The notes below the pieces were generated by a model. That model was not told where the DNA came from and ran no database searches. It saw only the letters and a list, made by a program, of their open reading frames with translations. A stretch of DNA of 64,000 nucleotides from Romeriopsis navalis LEGE 11480 (GTDB lineage: Bacteria; Cyanobacteriota; Cyanobacteriia; Leptolyngbyales; Leptolyngbyaceae), in the NCBI RefSeq assembly GCF_015207035.1, contig NZ_JADEXQ010000005.1:1-64000 (forward strand), in the 5' to 3' direction. The translations under genes and the position numbers were made by a program. This document shows, piece by piece, positions 14,299-51,648 of the stretch (its first letter is position 1; every line of letters starts with the position of its first letter).

Positions 14299-16725
14299 TT
14301 GATTCAAACTGAGACGCTCACATTGCTGGAATGGCCGCGCCTGTGTCAGCACCTTTCGACGTTTGCGGCCACGAAGTTGGGTGTGGCCGCGGCGCAGAGC
14401 TTGGCTTTGCCGGTGCAGCGTCAAGAGACTGAACAATTGTTGTGCCAAACCAAGGAGGTCTATGAGCTGGAAAACCGGCTGAATATTACGCTGCAATTTG
14501 ACGGGATTCAGGATATTCGGGATGCGCTGGCACGGGCGGATTTGCAGGGAATCTTGGCAGGAGTTGATTTGTTGGAAGTGGCAACGACGTTAGCGGGTGC
14601 GCGTCAGTTACGCCGGACGATCGATGATCAAGAAGATGGTGAAGTGCCGACATTGCTGATGTTGGTCGAGGAACTGCGGACTTATCCCGACTTAGAAAAA
14701 GAAATTTATCGTTGTATTGATGATCGAGGTCGAGTCACAGATCGGGCCAACCCAAAATTACTCGGGATTCGGGAAAAGCAGCGGACGACGCGGGACCAAA
14801 TTTATAGCAAATTGCAAAAGATGCTGAGTCGCAATAGTAATGCGGTGCAGGAAGCCGTGATTACGCAGCGGGATGGTCGCTATGTGATTCCGATTAAGGC
14901 GACGCACAAAGATTTAGTGCCGGGGATTGTGCATGACACATCGACGACGGGAGCGACGTTGTATGTGGAGCCACAATCAACCGTTGGGGCAAATAACCAA
15001 ATGCGACAACTGTTGCGTCAGGAGCAGGCGGAGGAGGAAGCGATTCGGCGACAGTTGACGGAGCAAATTGCGGCGGTCGGGTTGGATTTATTGCGACTGG
15101 TTGATATCTGTACGGTGCTGGATTTTGCAACGGCGCGGGCGCGTTATGGCTATTGGTTGGGGGCAAATCCGCCGCGGTTTGTGGATTGGTCGGGGGCAAA
15201 CTCGCGGCCGGTGGACGAATCAGCACCGAGTTTACCCACTGAAAAAATTGTTTTACGCCAACTGCGTCATCCCTTGCTGGTGTGGCAGCAATTGCAAGAA
15301 GCGGGACAGGCGGTGGTGCCGATCGACCTGACGATTCAGCCACAGATTCGGGTGGTGGCGATCACAGGGCCAAATACCGGCGGCAAGACTGTAACCCTGA
15401 AGACCTTGGGCTTAGCGGTGCTGATGGCGAAGGTGGGCATGTTTGTCCCGGCGCGGGAACCGGTTGAATTACCTTGGTTTGAGCAAGTATTGACGGATAT
15501 TGGGGATGAGCAATCGTTAGAGCAAAGTCTGTCCACCTTCTCCGGACATATTCGCCGGATTGGACGTATTTTGGAGGCCCTAGAGCAGACGTCGAATTCG
15601 CTGGTGTTACTGGATGAAGTGGGAGCGGGGACTGATCCTTCGGAGGGGAGTGCGTTGGCGATCGCCCTCTTGCAAGAACTGGCGGATAAAGCGGTTTTAT
15701 CCATTGCAACGACGCACTTTGGTGAACTGAAGGCGTTGAAATATCAAGATGCCCGATTTGAAAATGCGTCGGTTGAATTTGATGATGTGTCACTGTCGCC
15801 CACCTACAAATTGTTGTGGGGAATTCCCGGACGATCGAATGCGTTAGCAATTGCCCGACGTTTAGGACTGAAGCCGGATGTCATTGAGCAGGCACAAAAG
15901 TATGTTGGTGGAAAGCGTGAAGACTTGAATCAAGTTATTGCCGGATTGGAAACGCAGCGCCGGGAACAGGCGGAGAAGTCAGCGGAAGCCGATCGCTTGA
16001 TCAAGCAAGCCGAGTTTCTCTATGAGCAGGTCTCGCGTAAAGCCGATAAATTACGCGATCAAGAACGCCATCTCAAGGCCCAACAGGAAGAAGCGGTGCA
16101 GGCAGAAATTGGCCAGGCAAAGTCCGAAATTGCCAAGGTGATTCGGACTTTGCAACGGGGTAAGGTGAGTGGCCAAGATGCGCAGCAAGCAACGGCGAAG
16201 GTTGATCAGCTGGCGGGTAAATATTTGCCTTCACAACAGAAGAAAGCCAAACCGAAACCCGGTTTTCGGCCTCAAGTTGGCGATCGGGTGCGGATTCCAC
16301 GTCTGGGGCAAAAAGGTGAGGTATTGTCGATTGCGGCCGATGGGGATACCTTGGCGGTGCGATTTGGTTTGATGAAGATGACCGTTGGGATGGACGAAAT
16401 CGAGTCGCTTCAAGGCGAAAAAGTGCAGAAACCTGAGCGTTCGATGCCAAAGACGCCTGTACCACCACCGGCGCCGACGCCTTTGATTAAAACCAGCCAA
16501 AATACGATTGATATTCGGGGCAGTCGGGTGATGGATGCGGAAGTGACGCTCGATCAGGCGATTGCGACGGGCGATCGCGCGATTTGGATTATTCATGGCC
16601 ATGGCACTGGGAAGCTGCGCCACGGCGTGCATGAATTCCTGAAGCAGCATGGTCGGGTGACGCGGTTTGAAGCAGCGGCGAAAGAAGACGGTGGGTCGGG
16701 TGTGACAATTGCCCATCTTTGCTAG
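14299..16725 (+). CDS. mutS2: MutS2-family endonuclease/ATPase
   Basis: An 808-residue MutS2 protein. It lacks the MutS mismatch-recognition domain and starts directly with the clamp/core (LTLLEWPRLCQHLSTFA). The ATPase domain has Walker A GPNTGGKTVTLKTLG near residue 357, SLVLLDEVGAGTDPSEGSALA as Walker B, and TTHFGELK. A long charged coiled coil (about residues 525-640) precedes a basic linker and a C-terminal Smr nuclease domain (about 735-808) with IDIRGSR and IIHGHGTGKLR. Family members suppress recombination or rescue collided ribosomes. The start is TTG at 14299; no in-frame ATG fits better. It stands alone and is divergent from nadA. Confidence 0.95.
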   Translation: MIQTETLTLLEWPRLCQHLSTFAATKLGVAAAQSLALPVQRQETEQLLCQTKEVYELENRLNITLQFDGIQDIRDALARADLQGILAGVDLLEVATTLAGARQLRRTIDDQEDGEVPTLLMLVEELRTYPDLEKEIYRCIDDRGRVTDRANPKLLGIREKQRTTRDQIYSKLQKMLSRNSNAVQEAVITQRDGRYVIPIKATHKDLVPGIVHDTSTTGATLYVEPQSTVGANNQMRQLLRQEQAEEEAIRRQLTEQIAAVGLDLLRLVDICTVLDFATARARYGYWLGANPPRFVDWSGANSRPVDESAPSLPTEKIVLRQLRHPLLVWQQLQEAGQAVVPIDLTIQPQIRVVAITGPNTGGKTVTLKTLGLAVLMAKVGMFVPAREPVELPWFEQVLTDIGDEQSLEQSLSTFSGHIRRIGRILEALEQTSNSLVLLDEVGAGTDPSEGSALAIALLQELADKAVLSIATTHFGELKALKYQDARFENASVEFDDVSLSPTYKLLWGIPGRSNALAIARRLGLKPDVIEQAQKYVGGKREDLNQVIAGLETQRREQAEKSAEADRLIKQAEFLYEQVSRKADKLRDQERHLKAQQEEAVQAEIGQAKSEIAKVIRTLQRGKVSGQDAQQATAKVDQLAGKYLPSQQKKAKPKPGFRPQVGDRVRIPRLGQKGEVLSIAADGDTLAVRFGLMKMTVGMDEIESLQGEKVQKPERSMPKTPVPPPAPTPLIKTSQNTIDIRGSRVMDAEVTLDQAIATGDRAIWIIHGHGTGKLRHGVHEFLKQHGRVTRFEAAAKEDGGSGVTIAHLC

Positions 16726-17361: not shown

Positions 17362-20300
17362 ATGCAAAAAACAGTGGATCGACTTATTTGTTTGGATGCC
17401 AATCTGTCGGAATTAGAAGTATTGCGTCAGGGGGCGATCGCTAATTCGAAAATTGTAGAACTTACAGTTGAGTACGATGGGTTCAGCCAAATTGCTGAGT
17501 CTTTAGCGGGATTGTTTCACCAAACAGGTGAGTTGGTGCGGGAACTGCATATTGTTTCCCATGGTGCGCCGGGGGCGTTGCATTTAGCCAGTGCGACGAT
17601 CGATGCTGCGGCATTGCATCAATATGCTGCTGTCTTTGCTACCTGGAATTTATATCTAGACCCGAATGCCGCTGTTTATTTGTATGGCTGCGAGGTTGCG
17701 GCGGGTGCGATAGGGCGGATGTTTGTGCAGCAGCTGAGCCAAGCCTTAGGGCGGGGTGTTGCCGCATCGGAAACCTTGACTGGTGCGACGACGCAGGGCG
17801 GCGACTGGGATTTGGCGGTGCGAGTCGGTCAAGTGCCTCAGCAGCTAGCGTTTACGACCATGATGCAGCAGCGTTATGCCGGCATCCTGAATAATCCGGT
17901 CTTTGCGTTCGATAACCTGGGGGCGATCGGCAGTGGCACGGACCTGTTGTATCGCAATGGTGATGCGGCGGTGACGGGTGATGCGCTCAAGCTGACTTCG
18001 AACCAGACGTTTCAGCGTGCTAGTAGCTATTTAGTGACGCCAGTTGAAATCGATGCGCGGGTTTCATTTAGCACGAGCTTCGAGTTTCAATTGGGTGGTA
18101 CAGCGGGCACGAATGGCTCCGATGGTTTTACCTTTGTGTTGCAAAACTCCGATGCTGGCGTCCAAGCGCTGGGCCTCGCTGGCGGTAACGTTGGTTATGG
18201 TGGCCTGGGCGGGAAGAGTCTCGCGATTAAATTCGATACCTATGAAAATCAGGGGATTGACCTGGGTAATAACAGCGTATCGATCGTCCGTGATGGCTCA
18301 GTTTTGTCTTATGTCGCAGCGGCGGTGGCGCCGGTTGATTTGAATGATGGTCAAGTCCATACGGCCTGGATTGATTACAACGGCCTGACGGATCAGTTGG
18401 ATGTGTATGTGGGCAATGGTGCAAAGCCCGGACAAGCACTGTTATCGGCTGACATCGATCTTTTAGATGTCGTGGGTAATCAGGCTTACATTGGGTTTAC
18501 GGGGGGGAGCGGCTCAATCGAGTCGGAACAGGAAATTCGGAGCTGGTCGTTTGCGGCGGAAGCCGTGAGTGTGTTGACGGGCAGTGTGCCACCGGCTGTG
18601 CCCGTAGCACAGGTGGACTTGGCGGATGTGAGTTCTGACCTGATTAGCTTTAATGGTTCGACCAGTCGTCGAGCTGGCTCGTTAGAACTGACTCCAGATG
18701 GGATTCAGCGTCGTGGGAGTGCCTTCTATACGACGCCGATCCAGGTGAACGACAACACGGGTTTTAAGACGCAGTTCAATTTTCAATTGGATGGCGGCTC
18801 GGGAACTGCTGGTTCGGATGGATTTACCTTTACACTGCAGAACTCTAACGCCGGCTCACGGGCGATCGGCGCAGTTGGCGGTAATGTCGGATTTGGGGGA
18901 ATTGAAAAGAGTCTCGCGATTAAGTTTGATACCTATCAAAATACCAATACCGATGACCCATCGGATAATAGTGTCTCGATTTTGCGGGATGGTAATGTGC
19001 TCGCCGCACTCAAGGATGCGCAAGGTAATCCATTGGCGGTGACGGTGCCATTTGATCTTAACAATGGCCAACAATATAGTGCTTGGGTCGAATACGATGG
19101 TGCGACCAATCAGCTCACGGTCTTTTTGTCTGGTGGTACGGAGCAGCCAGACACCGCAATTCTGACGGCGATTGTGGATTTGGCGGCGATTGTGGGCGAC
19201 GAAGCCTATATTGGCTTTACCGCTGGCACTGGAGCCGTCGCAAACCGTCAAACGATCACGGGGTGGAAATTTGAGACAGATACCCAAATCGGTGATGGCG
19301 ATGGTTTGCGGGGTGAGTATTTTGATAATGCGGACTTTACCAACTTGCGATTAGTGCGGATCGATCCGACCGTCGATTATGATTGGGTGCTCGGTTCGCC
19401 GGAACCGGATATTGCCCCCGATACGTTCTCTGTGCGTTGGACTGGCCAAGTGCAGGCGTTGTATAACGAGGAATATACGTTCTTCACAACGACTGATGAT
19501 GGCGCTCGATTGACGGTGAATGGTGAAGTCTTAATTAATCAATTGGTTGATCAGGCGGCAACTGAACGATCGGGCAAGATCACGCTAGAAGCGGGTCAGA
19601 AGTATGACATCGTTCTGGAATATTTTGATAATGCAGAAGATGCGTCGGCGCAGTTGGCTTGGTCGAGTGGCACCCAGTTGAAGGAAATTATTCCGCAGTC
19701 GCAGTTATTTACAACGCCATACAACCCCGGCACGATTTTGATGGGCAGTGAGCCGATTACGGTGCAGGAAGATGCGGGCTTTGTGCAGGTGCGCTTTGAC
19801 CGTGTCGATGGTAGTGACGGATATGCGACGGTTAACTACAACACGGTCGATGTGACGGCCTTGGGTGGCGAGGACTTTGTGGAAGTTGCGGCGAACGTCA
19901 CCTTCGCGCCGGGTGAAACTTCCAAGACCGTCAATATCGCCATCAGTGATGATAATGCGATTGAAACGACCGAACAATTTGGGGTCGCCCTGGGCCAGAC
20001 TTCTGGTGCCGATCTGGGGGCGCGGCGGACCGTCGGCATCACCATTTTGGATGATGATAGCGGTGTGGCGGTATTCGACTTGAGTCGGAATACCTATACC
20101 GTGGATGAGGATGCTGGTGTTGCGGTGATTACGGTACAGCGATCCGGGGATACGACGATTGCCGCCACGGTTAACTATGCGACAACCGCGGGTTCGGCGA
20201 CGGAGGGAGGTGATTTCACCGCGACAACGGGCACGTTGAACTTTGCGGCGAATGAGTTAACCAAGACCTTTGTGGTGAATATCACCGATGATGGCACAAC

Positions 20301-21678
20301 GGAAGTGAATGAGTCCTTGCGGCTTGATCTCAGTGCGCCAACGGCTGGCCGTTTGGGTGACATTACCACCTCAACCCTGACGATTTTGGATAATGATCTA
20401 GCCGGCGAATTTGTGCGGGATACAGTGGCGTTTGGCTTAGAAGATCCAACGGCGCTAGAGTTCGCCAATGGCTTGTCACCAAATGGTTCTCAGCTGCTGT
20501 TTGTGGCGGAGAAGCGCGGTACGGTGCGGGTGATTGATGATGGCAACTTGCTGGGTGATTTCTTTATTGATATCTCCGGTGAAGTGAATAACGTCCGCGA
20601 TCGCGGTTTGATTGGTATTGCGGTTCACCCCGAGTTCTACAACGGCAATCCCTATCTCTATCTGTCCTACACTTATGATCCGCCTGAAACGGCGAATGCC
20701 GCTCAGGGGAGCAGCGCTGGTGCGGATGGTGTCGGTAACCGGCCATCCCGGGTAATTCGGGTGACGGCGGATGCTGCCACGGGTTATACAACGGCGGTGG
20801 CGAACAGTGCCGTGGTGATTTTGGGGACAAACAGTACTTGGGCCAATACCAGCAGCCCGGAGCTCAACAGCACATCGGACTTTACGATTGCACCGTCAGG
20901 TCAGAATGCGGATGGTAGCTGGGTCCAGGATTACCTGGCCTCGGATAGTGAATCGCACTCGATTGGCGATGTGTCCTTTGGGTTGGATGGTGCCTTGTAT
21001 GTGAGTAACGGTGACGGTGCTTCCTACAGTAATGTTGACCCACGGGCAGTGCGCGTATTAGATGTGGATAATCTTTCCGGTAAGCTGCTCCGGATTGACC
21101 CAATTACGGGGGATGGTTTGGCGGATAACCCGTTCTATGACGGCAATCCCGACAGTAACCGATCGAAGGTACTGAACTTAGGTTTGCGGAATCCCTTCCG
21201 GTTTACGTTTAATCCGGAAACCGGCGATCCCGTGATCGGTGATGTGGGTTGGACCTTGTGGGAAGAAATCAATGTGGGTCGTGGGAAAAACTTTGGCTGG
21301 CCGTTCTTTGAGGGAGGGGATGGGACCTCTGCCCGCTCCGGTTACCAGATTTTGCCAGAGGCACAAGACTTCTATAACAGTGGTGAAGTAGTCACAGCTT
21401 CGGCGTTTGCCTATGAGCATGATGGATTTAATGCCATTGTGATTGGGGACTTCTATACGGGGTTGGCACCGGATTTACAGGATGGTCTGTTTATCTCTGA
21501 TGCGAGCCGTGGCACGATCGATGTTGTCTTTTTCAATGAAAGTGGGACGGATGTTGTGCAGACTCAACGCTTTGCTGAGAATATCTTCGGCGTTGTGCAG
21601 CTTGAAAGTGGCCCAGATGGCGGGATGTACTTTGCGAATCTGCTCAATGGCACAATTGAGCGTTGGCTCTTTCAATAA
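17362..21678 (+). CDS. Multidomain DUF4347 / lectin / PA14 / Calx-beta / sugar-dehydrogenase protein
   Basis: A 1438-residue protein. In order: DUF4347 (about 10-175; ELHIVSHGAPGALHL and VYLYGCEVAAGAIG), two L-type-lectin-like beta-sandwiches (about 180-400 and 415-645; repeated GSDGFTFVLQNS / GSDGFTFTLQNS and SLAIKFDTYQN), a PA14 domain (about 648-780; GLRGEYFDN, TTTDDGARLTVNG), two Calx-beta repeats (about 785-1010; each ending TILDDD or TILDND), and a PQQ-type glucose/sorbosone dehydrogenase propeller (about 1015-1438; DRGLIGIAVHPEF, GLRNPFRFTFNPETGD). There is no classical signal peptide, as is common for DUF4347 proteins. I infer a large surface or secreted carbohydrate-binding protein. 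The start ATG at 17362 fits the DUF4347 N-terminus. Confidence 0.9.
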   Translation: MQKTVDRLICLDANLSELEVLRQGAIANSKIVELTVEYDGFSQIAESLAGLFHQTGELVRELHIVSHGAPGALHLASATIDAAALHQYAAVFATWNLYLDPNAAVYLYGCEVAAGAIGRMFVQQLSQALGRGVAASETLTGATTQGGDWDLAVRVGQVPQQLAFTTMMQQRYAGILNNPVFAFDNLGAIGSGTDLLYRNGDAAVTGDALKLTSNQTFQRASSYLVTPVEIDARVSFSTSFEFQLGGTAGTNGSDGFTFVLQNSDAGVQALGLAGGNVGYGGLGGKSLAIKFDTYENQGIDLGNNSVSIVRDGSVLSYVAAAVAPVDLNDGQVHTAWIDYNGLTDQLDVYVGNGAKPGQALLSADIDLLDVVGNQAYIGFTGGSGSIESEQEIRSWSFAAEAVSVLTGSVPPAVPVAQVDLADVSSDLISFNGSTSRRAGSLELTPDGIQRRGSAFYTTPIQVNDNTGFKTQFNFQLDGGSGTAGSDGFTFTLQNSNAGSRAIGAVGGNVGFGGIEKSLAIKFDTYQNTNTDDPSDNSVSILRDGNVLAALKDAQGNPLAVTVPFDLNNGQQYSAWVEYDGATNQLTVFLSGGTEQPDTAILTAIVDLAAIVGDEAYIGFTAGTGAVANRQTITGWKFETDTQIGDGDGLRGEYFDNADFTNLRLVRIDPTVDYDWVLGSPEPDIAPDTFSVRWTGQVQALYNEEYTFFTTTDDGARLTVNGEVLINQLVDQAATERSGKITLEAGQKYDIVLEYFDNAEDASAQLAWSSGTQLKEIIPQSQLFTTPYNPGTILMGSEPITVQEDAGFVQVRFDRVDGSDGYATVNYNTVDVTALGGEDFVEVAANVTFAPGETSKTVNIAISDDNAIETTEQFGVALGQTSGADLGARRTVGITILDDDSGVAVFDLSRNTYTVDEDAGVAVITVQRSGDTTIAATVNYATTAGSATEGGDFTATTGTLNFAANELTKTFVVNITDDGTTEVNESLRLDLSAPTAGRLGDITTSTLTILDNDLAGEFVRDTVAFGLEDPTALEFANGLSPNGSQLLFVAEKRGTVRVIDDGNLLGDFFIDISGEVNNVRDRGLIGIAVHPEFYNGNPYLYLSYTYDPPETANAAQGSSAGADGVGNRPSRVIRVTADAATGYTTAVANSAVVILGTNSTWANTSSPELNSTSDFTIAPSGQNADGSWVQDYLASDSESHSIGDVSFGLDGALYVSNGDGASYSNVDPRAVRVLDVDNLSGKLLRIDPITGDGLADNPFYDGNPDSNRSKVLNLGLRNPFRFTFNPETGDPVIGDVGWTLWEEINVGRGKNFGWPFFEGGDGTSARSGYQILPEAQDFYNSGEVVTASAFAYEHDGFNAIVIGDFYTGLAPDLQDGLFISDASRGTIDVVFFNESGTDVVQTQRFAENIFGVVQLESGPDGGMYFANLLNGTIERWLFQ

Positions 21679-21761: not shown

Positions 21762-21829
21762 CATGGAGGCGGGTGTGATGGATGGGAGCAACTACCAGGA
21801 TGATGTAATGCAGCGGCCTGGTGAGTCTG

Positions 21830-22558
21830 ATGACTTATTGTTTACGAATTGCGGATTTACCCAGGGATGAACGTCCCCGCGAGAAGCTTTGTTTATCTGG
21901 GGCGAAAGCGTTATCAAACGCCGAACTGATTGCGATTCTTTTGGGCACAGGGCAAGGGCCAGGAAAGCTATCGGCGGTGGGTTTAGGGCAGTATTTGTTG
22001 CAGCAGTTGGGGCAGCAAGCTGACGATCCATTGGCGCAGCTACGGGATGTGAGTCTGCATGATTTGACCCAGGTGCCGGGAATTGGACCCGCGAAAGCGA
22101 CGGCAATTTTGGCGGCGATCGAACTGGGCAAACGAGTTTATCAATCGCGGCCACCGGAGAAAGCGGTGGTTGATGATCCGAGTGTGGCGGCAAATGCGTT
22201 AAGTCATGATTTGATGTGGCAATCGCAGGAACGATTTGCGGTGTTGTTGTTGGATGTGAAGCATCGGATTTTGGCCAGTCAGGTGGTGACGATTGGAACG
22301 GCGACGGAAACCCTGGCGCATCCCCGTGAGATTTTTCGGGAGAGTATTCGGCAAGGGGCCGCGCGGGTGATTGTGGCCCATAACCATCCATCGGGTAGTT
22401 TGGAGCCGAGCGCGGCAGATATCGCGTTGACGCGGCAATTGCTGAAGGCCGCGCAGATTCTCGGGATGCCACTATTGGACCATTTGATTTTGGGCAATGG
22501 CGATTTTGCGAGTTTGCGGGAGCAGACGAGTTTGTGGCAGGAGCTGCCACAGGAGTGA
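21830..22558 (+). CDS. radC: RadC/JAB-domain DNA repair protein
   Basis: A 242-residue RadC protein. An N-terminal helix-hairpin-helix region ([35 protein letters not shown]) is followed by a JAB/MPN-type metalloprotease-like domain with the zinc motif [14 protein letters not shown] near residues 183-196 and the upstream glutamate. The family is named for a historical link to recombination repair; its true activity is unsettled. Start ATG 21830 ([11 protein letters not shown]) matches homologues; an in-frame GTG at 21821 would add three residues. It is a single gene between two unrelated ones. Confidence 0.94.
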
Positions 22559-29739: not shown

Positions 29740-29969
29740 AGGGATTTCGCGATGAGTTTAGCGATTGCTGTATTCAAGGTACCGGGGGATCAGCCAACTA
29801 GATTTAAATGGGCCGCTGGGGCCGAATTCTGGTGGGTTCCATTAAATTTCATCTCACTTTTAAAACCATTCTCAGTATCTGTTGTTTATATGACACAGAA
29901 CAAAGCGACCTACTCAGGTTGCTCTGCTGTCGGAAAAACATTTTCACATTTGATACTTCTGAGGTCTTT

Positions 29970-30242
29970 ATGCGCGTTAACTACTTAATCACTTTGGCGA
30001 CAGCTTCCCTTTTGGGCATGGGTGCCGTTGTTGGCTGTTCTAATCCTTGTGCTGCTAAAACTCCCAGTAGCTCTACTTCTGCGCCAGCTGATCCTTGTGC
30101 CTCGAAAAATCCTTGCGCTTCCAAAAATCCTTGCGCCTCGAAAAACCCTTGCGCCTCGAAAAACCCTTGCGCTTCCAAGAATCCTTGTGCCTCGAAAAAT
30201 CCTTGCGCTTCCAAAAATCCTTGCGCCTCGAAGAGCAACTAG
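29970..30242 (+). CDS. Small lipoprotein made of eight PCASKN repeats
   Basis: A 90-residue protein: signal sequence LITLATASLLGMGAVVGC with lipobox cysteine 23, a short linker with NPCAAKTP, then eight exact or near-exact hexapeptides PCASKN filling the rest. Ten cysteines in the sequence are regularly spaced every six residues in the repeat, with lysine beside each, which suggests metal binding or a disulfide- or wall-linked surface coat. The opposite strand also reads open across the repeat because the unit is 18 bases; that is a shadow. It is divergent from a cupredoxin-like lipoprotein and followed by a strong terminator. Function unknown. Confidence 0.85.
   Translation: MRVNYLITLATASLLGMGAVVGCSNPCAAKTPSSSTSAPADPCASKNPCASKNPCASKNPCASKNPCASKNPCASKNPCASKNPCASKSN
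30093..30236 (+). repeat. Eight tandem 18-base coding repeats
   Basis: Eight in-frame 18-base units (CCT TGC GCC TCG AAA AAC and synonymous variants) make up 144 bases of the lipoprotein gene. Units differ only at third positions, plus AAC/AGC in the last, so they arose by duplication under selection for the hexapeptide. Copy number is likely variable. Confidence 0.95.
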
Positions 30243-46990: not shown

Positions 46991-48160
46991 TTAGTGCGAG
47001 CGAATTGGTGTGCCGCAAGGGTACGTTGCAACTGGTATGGTGGTTTGGGCTGGTGGTGTTGAGGAATTTGATGGGGCGACTTGGATGGCTGCCTGGAGTT
47101 GTTGCATGAGGGCTGGCCGCTGATCGTAGAGTCGTTTGAGCGGTCGTGGAGCGGTTTTGTTGAGGCTGTAGGCGGTGATTAGTGGTAGGGCAATTGTACT
47201 ATCGGTATAGCAGACGATCGCGTTCGGTAATTCTTGTGGATCGACTTTGCCCCAGCTGACGGCTTCACTCGGGGTGGCCCCGGAAAGCCCGCCGGTATCG
47301 GGCCGGGCATCAGTAATTTGGATAAAGTAATCATGGCCGCGTTCTTCCAGACCTAAGATTTCGTGGAGGTGCGGTTGTGTCTGAAGGAGGAAGTTTTTGG
47401 GACTCCCCCCCCCGATGATGATGGCGGCGCTTTTGCCGGTGACGTCGGGATTATTGCTTCTGGCGCTGTAGGCGATCGCGGCGGTTTCATTGACATCAAT
47501 CATGGAATCGATTTGTAGCCCATTGCCAGCCAGTGCTAAAGCGGCAATATTCATGCCGATCGAGCTGTCGCCAGGAGAAGATGTATAGATTGGTACGCCA
47601 CATTCATAGGCGGTTGAAAGGAGGCAGGGGTGTTGAATCCCCAAACGCAGTTCGACTTCCCGCACATACTTGCCGAGTAAATAGTGAAATTCGGCTGTCC
47701 CCATACGTTTTTGGAAGGGCTCAGACTGGATGATTTGGCGAATGAAATCATCGGTGCTGAGTAAGACGTCATAGTCAAAAACAATGTCGTAAATGCGAAT
47801 CAAGCCTTCTTCGCGAAGCTTGATATCGTTCATAAAGGGATTGCCACTGTAGAGATTGAGGCCGAGCCCAAAATGTAGATCGTGATAAAGATTGGCGCCT
47901 GTACTTACGATCCAATCGACTAATCCCGATCGCAGCAGGGGAGAGAAAACGGATGTACCAAGACCCGCTGGGGTCATTGCACCAGAAAGACTCAAGCCAG
48001 TTGTGACACCCGGTTGAAATACCGATTGTTGAAGGAGCTGACAAACTTCACGTAATCGAGCGGAATTATAAGCGCTGAAATACCCATCAATTAATTCAGC
48101 CACAGTAATATCCGTTGGCATGGGCACCGGGGTAATTCTGTAGCCAGATGGTTCGGGCAT
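46991..48160 (-). CDS. Deoxyhypusine-synthase-like enzyme
   Basis: A 389-residue homologue of deoxyhypusine synthase. NAD- and spermidine-site motifs are visible: [51 protein letters not shown] (the lysine corresponds to the catalytic one of eukaryotic DHS), [23 protein letters not shown] and [15 protein letters not shown]. Bacteria lack eIF5A, so such enzymes make homospermidine or guanidino-polyamines. ATG 48160 ([18 protein letters not shown]) is the family start; the frame continues 147 bases 5' from a TTG that overlaps a hairpin at 48306-48337, which argues that the extension is leader RNA. Confidence 0.88.
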
Positions 48161-48726
48161 GGTCAAAACTCTGTCAATTGTTGATGAAACTGATTGCTGG
48201 AGGTACGTGCAAAAATGCTGTTTGAGCATCAATCCAGGACTCAATCTAGTAAACCCATCTTGCGCTGAAAATTCAAATGCGTGTGTGATATTGATCGGCG
48301 TGAGCAAAACTTATCAGCTAAATTGCTGATAAGTTTTCATGAACTAGGGATTATTTTCAGGTCATTCCCTGAGTTCATCGGCTAACATGAATCAATTTTC
48401 CGAATTGCTACGGATTATGTAATTTGAAAAATTCCGTAGGATGGCTCTCATTAACCGTCGCTAGATGCTGCTAAGCGACAGTTAAATGTCTCGGATTGTA
48501 ATTTTGATGGGGCTGTTAGTGAAGTTGGAATTTGACTTTGCTATCGGCCGTGATCAGTTGAATGCACTGGATCTAGACAGAATTTATACTTTGTCTCCAG
48601 ATAATTTTTTCGGGCGTCAAAAACTTAATCAGGATGATTCTGAAAATTTTTTGGCGCTGGAGGGAATACTAAGTATTGAGTTTTTAGGACATTCACAGCT
48701 AGAGAATCACTCTAAGGTACGCACTC
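48161..48726. other. Promoter region between the DHS-like gene and the PPC repeat protein
   Basis: 566 bases without a supported gene. It contains a perfect hairpin at 48306-48337 (13-base arms AAAACTTATCAGC and its complement, loop of six, followed on the minus strand by TTTT), which looks like an attenuator or terminator in the leader of the leftward gene. A second inverted repeat, TTAACCGTCGCT at 48451-48462 with AGCGACAGTTAA at 48474-48485 (one mismatch), lies about 240 bases upstream of the rightward gene. The frame 48486-48743 is rejected as a gene. Confidence 0.55.
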
Positions 48727-51648
48727 ATGCCAGACCTGACTAACAACACCGCCCAAACCGCTCGTGGGATTACGCTGTCCAAGGGGACATTTCAAACCTT
48801 GGCGACGGGGGATTTGACAACCGCGACTGATCCGATTGATTACTTTACATTTACGACGACCAGCGCGAGTAGCAACTTGAACTTGGCCCTGAATGGGCTA
48901 AGTGGCAATGCTCAGATGAAGGTCTATCAACGTCAGGGTGACGGTAGCCTGGGGGCTGAGTTAACAAGTAGTGCGACCTCTAGCAATACTGGCACGCTAG
49001 CTGAGTCATTTGTGCTCAATAACTTGTCAGCGGGAAGCTATGTGATTGAGGTGCAGTTGCCTACCGGCGTGACGGAGGCAAACTATACGCTGCAAGGGTT
49101 CGCTAGCGATTCGGGCAAAGCGAATACGCTGTTATGGCGTCAAGCCTCAACGGATACCCTGACGTTCTGGCAAGTTAATGGCACTACCTATGTTGGTTCT
49201 GATTATGTGAATGCAGGAATCCCGGGTTATGAAGTAATTGGGGTTGGCGACTTCGACGGCGATAAAATTGAAGATCTCGTCTGGCGTGAGAATAATGGTC
49301 CAGCGGATGATACTGTCACGATCTTTTTCATGAATGCGGATAATTCCGTGCGCGATGTTCAGTTCATCCTGGATGCGGCGAATCAGCCGTTGAAGTTCTC
49401 TGACCAGTTTCAATTGGGCGGGATTGCCGATCTCAACGGTGATGGTAAAGCCGATATGGTGATTACCTCAGATTTTGGAGCGGTATTTGTCTGGCGGATG
49501 GATAATGGCCGAATTGCCGAGCAGCAGGTCTACGATGGCTTGTCCGGTTATGAAGTGAGCGGCTTTGGCGACTTTGACGGCGATAATAAGCAAGATATTG
49601 TTTTCCGGAATACGACAAACGGGCAGGGATTGCTGGCTGTTTGGTTGATGGATGGCGCGTCCCGGACGGCGTCCGGGTTTGTCTCGACGGGGTTGACCGC
49701 GGACTGGAAGATTGAAGGGATTGGGAATGTGAATCGCACTATCGGTGGTTCGGATTCTGCTTCGGGTGCCGATGGTAATGATGACTTTATCTTCCGCAAT
49801 TCCGGTACAGGACAGGTCGCAATTTGGCAGATGAATGGTCTGCAGTTGCAAAATGCCGCCATCGTTGGTGGTGCGATTCCAAGTTTCTATGACATTGTGA
49901 AGACGGCGGATGTCAGTGGTGATCGGAACGTTGACATTATCTGGCGGGATAACAGTGCGGCGGCTCAGGTAGGCTTCTGGCTACTTGAAGGGGCATTTGC
50001 CAAGCAGGCGCAGTTTGCGCAGCGCGCGATCGGCCTTGAATATGTGCCAGTAGCATTTGCTGATTTTGATGGTGATGATCGGACCGATATTTTCTGGCGT
50101 AATACCAATGCCGCTGGATCGGGTGACCCATTTGCGGAAGCGACGGCAATTTGGTTGTTAGATGGGGTGAATTCGAAGTCGGAGGCCTTTGTGAATGTGC
50201 CTGGCTCGAACCCTGAAACCCCAGCATTGCGTCCAAGTAACTTGAACTTGGTGGGTACAATCAGCGCCGAGTTTACGAAGCAGACGCAGTCAACGGCGGG
50301 TAATGCTGTATCAACAGCGTTCAATATTGGCTTGCTGGAAGGTGCGGGTGATTACCAAGATGCGGTGATTGGGCCGGCGAGTGATTTCTTCCAATTCAAG
50401 CTAGAGCGTTCTTCGGATGTGACCGTCGCTTTGTCGGATGCCTTTGGTAGCACAGGTGCGGTCAATGCGACTTTTGTGTTGCAGCAGCAGACGGGCTTAA
50501 ATCAGGATGGAACGCCTATTCTGACGACTGTTAACGACTTGAATACGCCATTGGCTGCAGGAACCTACTTCTTGGAAGTTAAGAGTTCGGCGTTGGTTGG
50601 TCAGTCCGTAGCTTATAACTTGAAGATTGAAGGTACGCCGAATATTGTGAACCTTCAGGGTAGTGCGTTTGCGTCGGTCACGCCTGATTCAGGCTTTGAG
50701 GGTACGGCCAATGGCGCGATTCGTCTGGCTGATTTGACGGGTGTGACAAATCAGACGCCAGAAGCCGATAAGCCCAAAGCGACGGTTGATATCAACTTCA
50801 CAGTGGCGAATACGGAAGCGACGCAGTCGGCTCCGGTCGATGTGCGGTTCTATTTGTCACGGGTCCAAACCATTGACCCAACGAATACGAAAACTGTGGA
50901 TGAAGTCAGCAGTGCCCAAACAATCGATTTGGGGACGTTTAATATTGCCGCTGGTGTAGCCGGTAATTCGACCTTCTCCGGTGTGTTTGAAAATGTTGAG
51001 TTGCCAGCGGGTGACAATAATTTCTGGACCACCGATACCAACTATTTCATTGGTTATGAGGTTGATCCAGTGAGTCAAGGCGCACCGACAGGCGCGTTGT
51101 TCGAGACGAATGAAACCGACAATATTAATCGCGGCCTAGATATTGACGTGAAGCAAATCGCGATCGAAAACACCCAGACTCCTGATCTAGCGGGTGCTGG
51201 ACTGACTGCGACAGCTGGAACCGCGGCGGTGAAGGGAGGCAATGTGGCCTTGAGCTATGCGGTGCAAAACCTGGGTAAGAAATCAACCGGTAGCGTTGCG
51301 AATGATGTGGCAGTGCGGTTCTTCTTGTATCGCTTAGATGCAAATGAAGCGAATGTGCTGAATATCAGTGATACACAGCGGACGGTGGCGCTAGCGGTAA
51401 CGGATGATAATGCTCTCTTCTTGCCGAATATTGATGGTGAGACAACGGCACCGGCTCAAGCGATTGAGGTTATCTTGCCGAATCTCAATAATGCGTTCTG
51501 GCAGAATAATCCGGTTGGGACGCAGTACTTCATCGGTATGCAGTCTGACTCCGGTAGTCTGATCGCTGAGTCAAATGAATTGAACAATATCAACATTGGT
51601 GCCGGTACCGATAGTATTCAAATCACGGTATCTGACCCTGTTGCCTAG
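48727..51648 (+). CDS. PPC / FG-GAP-like repeat / CARDB-type exported protein
   Basis: A 973-residue protein. An N-terminal bacterial pre-peptidase (PPC) domain (about 8-130) is followed by a propeller of VCBS/FG-GAP-like repeats (about 133-500) with calcium-type loops DFDGDKIED, DLNGDGKAD, DFDGDNKQD, DVSGDRNVD and DFDGDDRTD, each paired with a W-R/F-R and I-W-L-M-D strand. A second PPC domain (about 515-640) and two CARDB-like beta domains (about 680-810 and 820-973) end the chain. There is no classical N-terminal signal, as in many cyanobacterial RTX-like or DUF4347-type surface proteins. Likely a secreted or surface calcium-binding protein; function unknown. Confidence 0.85.
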   Translation: MPDLTNNTAQTARGITLSKGTFQTLATGDLTTATDPIDYFTFTTTSASSNLNLALNGLSGNAQMKVYQRQGDGSLGAELTSSATSSNTGTLAESFVLNNLSAGSYVIEVQLPTGVTEANYTLQGFASDSGKANTLLWRQASTDTLTFWQVNGTTYVGSDYVNAGIPGYEVIGVGDFDGDKIEDLVWRENNGPADDTVTIFFMNADNSVRDVQFILDAANQPLKFSDQFQLGGIADLNGDGKADMVITSDFGAVFVWRMDNGRIAEQQVYDGLSGYEVSGFGDFDGDNKQDIVFRNTTNGQGLLAVWLMDGASRTASGFVSTGLTADWKIEGIGNVNRTIGGSDSASGADGNDDFIFRNSGTGQVAIWQMNGLQLQNAAIVGGAIPSFYDIVKTADVSGDRNVDIIWRDNSAAAQVGFWLLEGAFAKQAQFAQRAIGLEYVPVAFADFDGDDRTDIFWRNTNAAGSGDPFAEATAIWLLDGVNSKSEAFVNVPGSNPETPALRPSNLNLVGTISAEFTKQTQSTAGNAVSTAFNIGLLEGAGDYQDAVIGPASDFFQFKLERSSDVTVALSDAFGSTGAVNATFVLQQQTGLNQDGTPILTTVNDLNTPLAAGTYFLEVKSSALVGQSVAYNLKIEGTPNIVNLQGSAFASVTPDSGFEGTANGAIRLADLTGVTNQTPEADKPKATVDINFTVANTEATQSAPVDVRFYLSRVQTIDPTNTKTVDEVSSAQTIDLGTFNIAAGVAGNSTFSGVFENVELPAGDNNFWTTDTNYFIGYEVDPVSQGAPTGALFETNETDNINRGLDIDVKQIAIENTQTPDLAGAGLTATAGTAAVKGGNVALSYAVQNLGKKSTGSVANDVAVRFFLYRLDANEANVLNISDTQRTVALAVTDDNALFLPNIDGETTAPAQAIEVILPNLNNAFWQNNPVGTQYFIGMQSDSGSLIAESNELNNINIGAGTDSIQITVSDPVA

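Follow-up and report, generated by a model that had tools for sequence, protein, structure and literature searches.

Domain organization

Here we examine a large modular protein encoded in a window comprising the first 64 kb (64,000 nucleotides) of contig C5 of the cyanobacterium Romeriopsis navalis LEGE 11480, the genome of which amounts to 6.47 Mb at 99.5% completeness. The gene occupies positions 17362–21678 of the window on the forward strand, as do all of its parts cited below, and was called as a single ATG-started, uninterrupted frame of 1438 codons. In the genome the open frame extends over 1444 codons, and a hidden N-terminal extension is therefore excluded. The 1438-residue chain comprises seven domains of five kinds, namely DUF4347, two L-type (legume) lectin domains, PA14, two Calx-beta domains and a C-terminal GSDH domain, each of which scores above its Pfam curated cut-off. 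The row of recognizable modules in a single chain that the initial annotation had read from the sequence is thus upheld, and the Pfam search of the whole chain recovered both the lectin and the GSDH folds.

The C-terminal propeller

The GSDH domain (residues ~1014–1438; positions 20401–21675) was identified by Pfam (E 9e-26, two stretches), by hhalign against Asd/YliI, which covered the whole domain with a probability of 99.95, and by a structural model with a predicted local distance difference test score (pLDDT) of 91.5. The model superposes on the pyrroloquinoline quinone (PQQ) sugar dehydrogenase 3a9g with a Z score of 41.7 and a root-mean-square deviation (rmsd) of 2.0 over 323 residues, on sGDH with Z scores of 33–34, on HHIP with ~32 (32.4 for the HHIP–heparin complex 7pgm) and on fungal AA12 enzymes with 30–31. 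As modelled, the domain is certainly a complete six-bladed GSDH propeller. The counterparts of sGDH His144, Asp163, Arg228 and Asn229, which are His1199 (positions 20956–20958), Asp1218 and the pair Arg1276-Asn1277 (positions 21187–21192), are invariant across all 94 sequences compared. In HHIP, which was taken as a control lacking enzyme activity, the His is retained but His-Asp stands in place of Arg-Asn, a loss that is not seen in the GSDH family. Two other diagnostics were dropped: NCBIfam TIGR03606 as a membership test, because YliI itself falls far below its cut-off, and sGDH Lys377, a position at which known bacterial enzymes vary.

The anchoring of PQQ is a different matter. Arg408 and the C-terminal PQQ anchors of sGDH have been described (PMC6881789), and an RxR(D/E) motif near the C-terminus, containing the Arg pair that grips the PQQ carboxylates (406/408 in sGDH), is present in five bacterial sequences: YliI, 7cdy, 2ism, 3a9g and the stand-alone Asd of the host. 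The corresponding residues 1405–1417 (positions 21574–21612) contain no Arg, and the Gly-Pro that provides main-chain Ca2+ ligands in sGDH reads Gly-Trp. Of the PQQ-type dehydrogenase fold claimed in the initial annotation, the fold and the catalytic His, Arg, Asn and Asp are thus kept, while the Arg pair and the Gly-Pro ligands are lost. Since the Arg pair is missing, we do not file the protein as a PQQ dehydrogenase; that label is unproven, and the domain may be either a propeller used for binding or an oxidoreductase in which cofactor binding has changed. Judged from the alignment, candidates for a different cofactor site are two invariant basic residues that are specific to the family, Arg1081 and Arg1280, and the near-invariant His1353.

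Genes for PQQ synthesis are also missing. PqqE is absent from the host genome and was found in one of the 58 relatives searched, and PqqC is absent from the host genome and from eight of nine further searched genomes carrying the GSDH family. One cyanobacterial relative (G033) encodes both, so the search works in this clade; its PqqC and PqqE genes (L072 and L074) lie side by side at ~5.406 Mb on the chromosome and may have been gained horizontally. We do not accept the missing genes as proof against the use of PQQ because PQQ is used by Escherichia coli and by fungi, neither of which synthesizes it (PMC6881810). In fungal AA12 enzymes, catalysis persists although the PQQ anchors are changed (PMC6881789, PMC6881810). 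The host genome itself also encodes a stand-alone GSDH of the canonical type, in which the RVRDV motif is intact.

The DUF4347 head

DUF4347 (residues 8–176; positions 17383–17889; Pfam E 3e-43) is present in 11 copies in the host genome. An AlphaFold2 model based on an alignment of 22 family members has a mean pLDDT of 90.5 and a predicted template-modelling score (pTM) of 0.88. The closest solved structure is 9qpe chain G, the effector Tce1 bound to Hcp3 (Foldseek E 2e-5), with a Z score of 12.7 and an rmsd of 3.0 over 151 residues. The next matches are a SAVED-CHAT filament (Z 8.8) and C11, legumain, caspase and C80 (cysteine protease domain; CPD) structures, of which the Z scores of ~6–7 may reflect a common arrangement only, the weight lying on their mutual agreement and that with the sequence. 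Tce1 (PA0256) is itself a DUF4347 protein (PMC8262886), for which a His186/Cys240 dyad has been proposed (PMC13323088). Here the dyad corresponds to His67 (positions 17560–17562) and Cys110 (positions 17689–17691), retained in 20 and in all 22 of the 22 aligned rows, respectively. A weak Peptidase_C80 match is the most frequent second Pfam match, occurring in nine of the 22 members; none exceeds the cut-off of this family (PF11713), the best, from a paralogue, reaching 20.5 bits versus 23.8, and the 1438-residue protein itself has no such match. The model makes a clan CD (caspase/C80-like) cysteine-peptidase fold very likely for DUF4347, which the initial annotation had taken only as a hallmark of giant cyanobacterial surface proteins. 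By analogy with the processing domains known in large surface proteins (PMC3482391), it may be a self-processing peptidase that cuts its own chain.

Two giant DUF4347 proteins (L068 and L069), with open frames of 7612 and 4922 amino acids, lie close together on contig C43, and the fragments of them that were read contain RTX-like glycine/aspartate-rich repeats.

The central binding modules

The two lectin domains (positions 17902–18561 and 18640–19284) score 111 and 125 bits, respectively, against Lectin_legB, which matches the chain in two stretches with an E value of 5e-67. They had been described as near-duplicates; however, their identity is 46% across 221 aligned columns and each is equally close to its twin and to lectins found in other proteins, and a recent tandem duplication was rejected on these grounds. 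Both retain Asp/Asn/Asp at what we take, from general knowledge of legume lectins, to be the Ca2+ site, and both may plausibly bind sugar.

The single PA14 domain (residues 647–780; positions 19300–19701) matches Pfam with an E value of 9e-23 and 81 bits versus a cut-off of 24. Its nearest PDB sequence is that of the RsgI3 PA14 domains (6qe7; E 3e-76 for the two-domain chain), in keeping with the suggestion of the initial annotation that a carbohydrate surface is the target, which is plausible. Two Calx-beta domains follow (residues 790–899 and 904–1012; positions 19729–20058 and 20071–20397), together matched by Pfam in two stretches with an E value of 2e-40 and 138 bits versus a cut-off of 27.

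Family and architectures

Relatives were sought in 58 related genomes and in GTDB at one genome per species (80 of 157 places kept), and their architectures were read with purpose-built profiles, with a Pfam check on 28 sequences. Proteins related to the GSDH part occur in many cyanobacteria, in Planctomycetota (mostly Pirellulaceae) and in one actinobacterial metagenome-assembled genome. GSDH is the last domain recognized by these profiles in all 83 proteins of which the N-terminus is not cut by a contig edge, and DUF4347, present in 28 of the 83, is the most N-terminal domain in every case. The exception is a protein in genome G047, in which the profiles recognize GSDH alone and Pfam places PKD/Big domains after it. 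The modules between DUF4347 and GSDH are legume-type lectins, one to four PA14 domains, CBM60 copies, C-type lectins or laminin-G domains. They are accompanied by one or two Calx-beta domains, which either directly precede the propeller or are separated from it by a single module. Within the host, two tandem paralogues on contig C4 have the same frame, one with two CBM60 domains and the other with a lectin and three PA14 domains. Thus, evolution keeps GSDH at the C-terminal end and DUF4347, where present, at the N-terminal end, and exchanges the binding modules between them. That the propeller stays last while the modules are swapped supports the earlier idea that they target it.

The initial annotation had allowed for the possibility that this exact domain order is common and already characterized. 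The general frame is indeed common to a broad, uncharacterized family, of which the 1438-residue protein is one variant, but its exact order was found only once among the 83 proteins, in this protein itself. Among 42 genomes of the order, no other has a whole-chain match, and a literature search found no study of this domain combination and no characterized member. Three planctomycete members (L087, L088 and L120) carry an LE(E/D/P)RxML motif near the N-terminus, unlike the cyanobacterial members.

Genomic context

The gene lies between mutS2 (positions 14299–16725, forward strand) and radC (positions 21821–22558, forward strand), and no sugar-metabolism operon surrounds it. A GSDH-family gene adjoins mutS2 in six related genomes besides the host (seven in total). 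One reading considered, that these genes occupy a simple orthologous locus following mutS2 and exchange their modules in place, was rejected: the mutS2-linked rows do not form one group in the GSDH tree, which requires five changes, four of them forced by starred branches, and strict orthology is therefore not claimed. The 1438-residue protein sits on a long, open branch of this tree. One mutS2-linked relative (L060; genome G009, contig C188) is split into several frames, representing either a decayed gene or an assembly error, and internal stops were reported in matches neighbouring it.

Elsewhere in the window, a 973-residue protein with FG-GAP repeats and a PPC domain (positions 48727–51648, forward strand) is a second surface-type protein. 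A short open reading frame at positions 29808–30242 (forward strand) has a lipoprotein-like leader and ends in approximately eight tandem NPCASK repeats, its C-terminal part having no Pfam match, and a bacterial deoxyhypusine synthase family protein (Pfam DS, 238 bits) is encoded at positions 46991–48307 on the reverse strand.

Proposed function and alternatives

We propose, with a probability of roughly one half, that the propeller is a GSDH-type oxidoreductase that binds its cofactor in an altered way and is directed to glycans by the modular surface protein carrying it. The chain is probably an exported, calcium-rich surface protein, export being likely from its domain content. The DUF4347 head would most likely trim or release the chain during or after export. 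The lectins and PA14, the folds of which are established, would bind glycans of the organism's own sheath, of a biofilm or of another organism, and the two Calx-beta domains, likewise established in fold, would form a Ca2+-stiffened stalk. The propeller would be the delivered payload, with an oxidoreductase-type site that keeps the catalytic His, Arg and Asn of sGDH and that may hold its cofactor unlike bacterial PQQ enzymes, either scavenged PQQ gripped through other residues or another cofactor. Its substrates are probably sugars that the bound glycan presents at its surface.

Several observations weigh against this proposal. In both lectins the Glu and the His of the Mn2+ site are replaced by Lys and Ser, respectively, residues that most relatives retain; this site defines plant legume lectins and is missing from some L-type lectins. 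A simple hydropathy check found no Sec signal peptide (1.15 versus ~2.2 in two signal-bearing controls), the Pfam scan found no RTX family and the chain ends with the propeller. As for a secretion route, which the initial annotation had suggested looking for, the host genome does encode two HlyB-like exporters that match the whole model, but both score below the family cut-off and neither adjoins the gene. His67 of the DUF4347 dyad is replaced by Asn in two of the 22 rows. The anchor region of the propeller reads FGVVQL and no Arg is conserved at those positions in the family. The host genome lacks PqqC and PqqE, although E. coli also has PQQ enzymes without PQQ synthesis (PMC6881810).

The absence of the anchors and of the synthesis genes fits the main rival explanation, namely a non-enzymatic adhesin in which the propeller holds no cofactor and is a further binding module, as HHIP is for Hedgehog and heparin. 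The resemblance of the fold to heparin-bound HHIP points the same way, as does the fact that every other module except DUF4347 is a binding or stalk module. Against it, the catalytic His, Arg, Asn and Asp are invariant across two phyla, whereas HHIP has lost the Arg-Asn pair, and the propeller is nearer to the sugar dehydrogenases (Z ~40) than to HHIP (Z ~32); we therefore consider this explanation unlikely, if the most serious competitor. Slightly more doubtful still is an ordinary sugar dehydrogenase using scavenged PQQ, in which the Arg pair would be replaced, for instance, by Arg1081, Arg1280 or His1353, in the manner of fungal AA12 enzymes. The invariance of basic residues in the family, the precedent of E. 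coli and fungi and the canonical GSDH that the host keeps despite having no pqqC or pqqE are in its favour, but the three residues are only putatively cofactor-facing and the Gly-Trp at the Ca2+ loop argues against it. The processing step of the proposed oxidoreductase has a rival of its own, in which DUF4347 is a folding or export-targeting domain only, devoid of peptidase activity. The Asn-bearing rows, the C80 scores below the cut-off and the position of the domain at the N-terminus of giant proteins without a signal peptide suit such a role, which is possible although on balance improbable given that the His/Cys dyad occurs in 20 of 22 rows within a clan CD-like fold and that Tce2, a putative cysteine protease with a predicted Tce1-like fold, requires its active-site Cys for toxicity in yeast (PMC13323088).

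The present analysis adds two points, a predicted caspase-like fold for DUF4347 and a split active site in the propeller, in which the catalytic residues are kept and the PQQ grips are lost. More speculatively, and in our view with the odds clearly against it as a whole, the proteins may form a widespread unrecognized extracellular family of Cyanobacteria and Planctomycetota. Its members would use a self-processing, caspase-like head to deliver a GSDH oxidoreductase that is targeted to glycans and binds a redox cofactor, PQQ or other, in an undescribed way. Two labels on bacterial surface proteins become testable claims: 'domain of unknown function' gives way to a caspase-like processing head for DUF4347, and 'PQQ dehydrogenase' to a GSDH family with catalytic residues but without the known PQQ grips. 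If these proteins are active, cyanobacteria and planctomycetes could oxidize sugars in place at a glycan surface of their choice.

Comparison with known systems

The bacterial GSDH aldose/glucose dehydrogenases (sGDH 1c9u, Asd/YliI 2g8s, 3a9g and 2ism) share the six-bladed propeller (Z 33–42) and the catalytic His, Arg-Asn and Asp with the present domain, but they are stand-alone enzymes with RxR(D/E) anchors and a Gly-Pro Ca2+ loop, whereas here the anchors are gone, the loop reads Gly-Trp and the propeller is fused C-terminally to glycan-binding modules. HHIP presents the same fold in an extracellular multidomain protein and binds heparin (7pgm), but has His-Asp where the GSDH family has an invariant Arg-Asn. 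The RsgI3 PA14 dyad (6qe7), the closest PDB sequence to the PA14 domain, is part of an anti-sigma factor with two PA14 domains rather than one. Tce1 and the clan CD peptidases (C80 CPDs, C11, legumain and caspases) resemble the DUF4347 head in fold (Z 12.7 for Tce1) and in the His/Cys dyad; Tce1, however, is cargo packed in an Hcp tube, whereas here DUF4347 heads a surface-type protein and has a putative peptidase role. In fungal CcPDH (AA8 cytochrome b, AA12 and CBM1) a GSDH-type propeller with altered PQQ anchors is likewise fused to a carbohydrate-binding module (PMC6881789), but CcPDH has a cytochrome domain that is lacking here, its AA12 domain, a weaker structural match (Z ~30), keeps Arg621 at one of the sGDH anchor sites and its binding module is of another kind.

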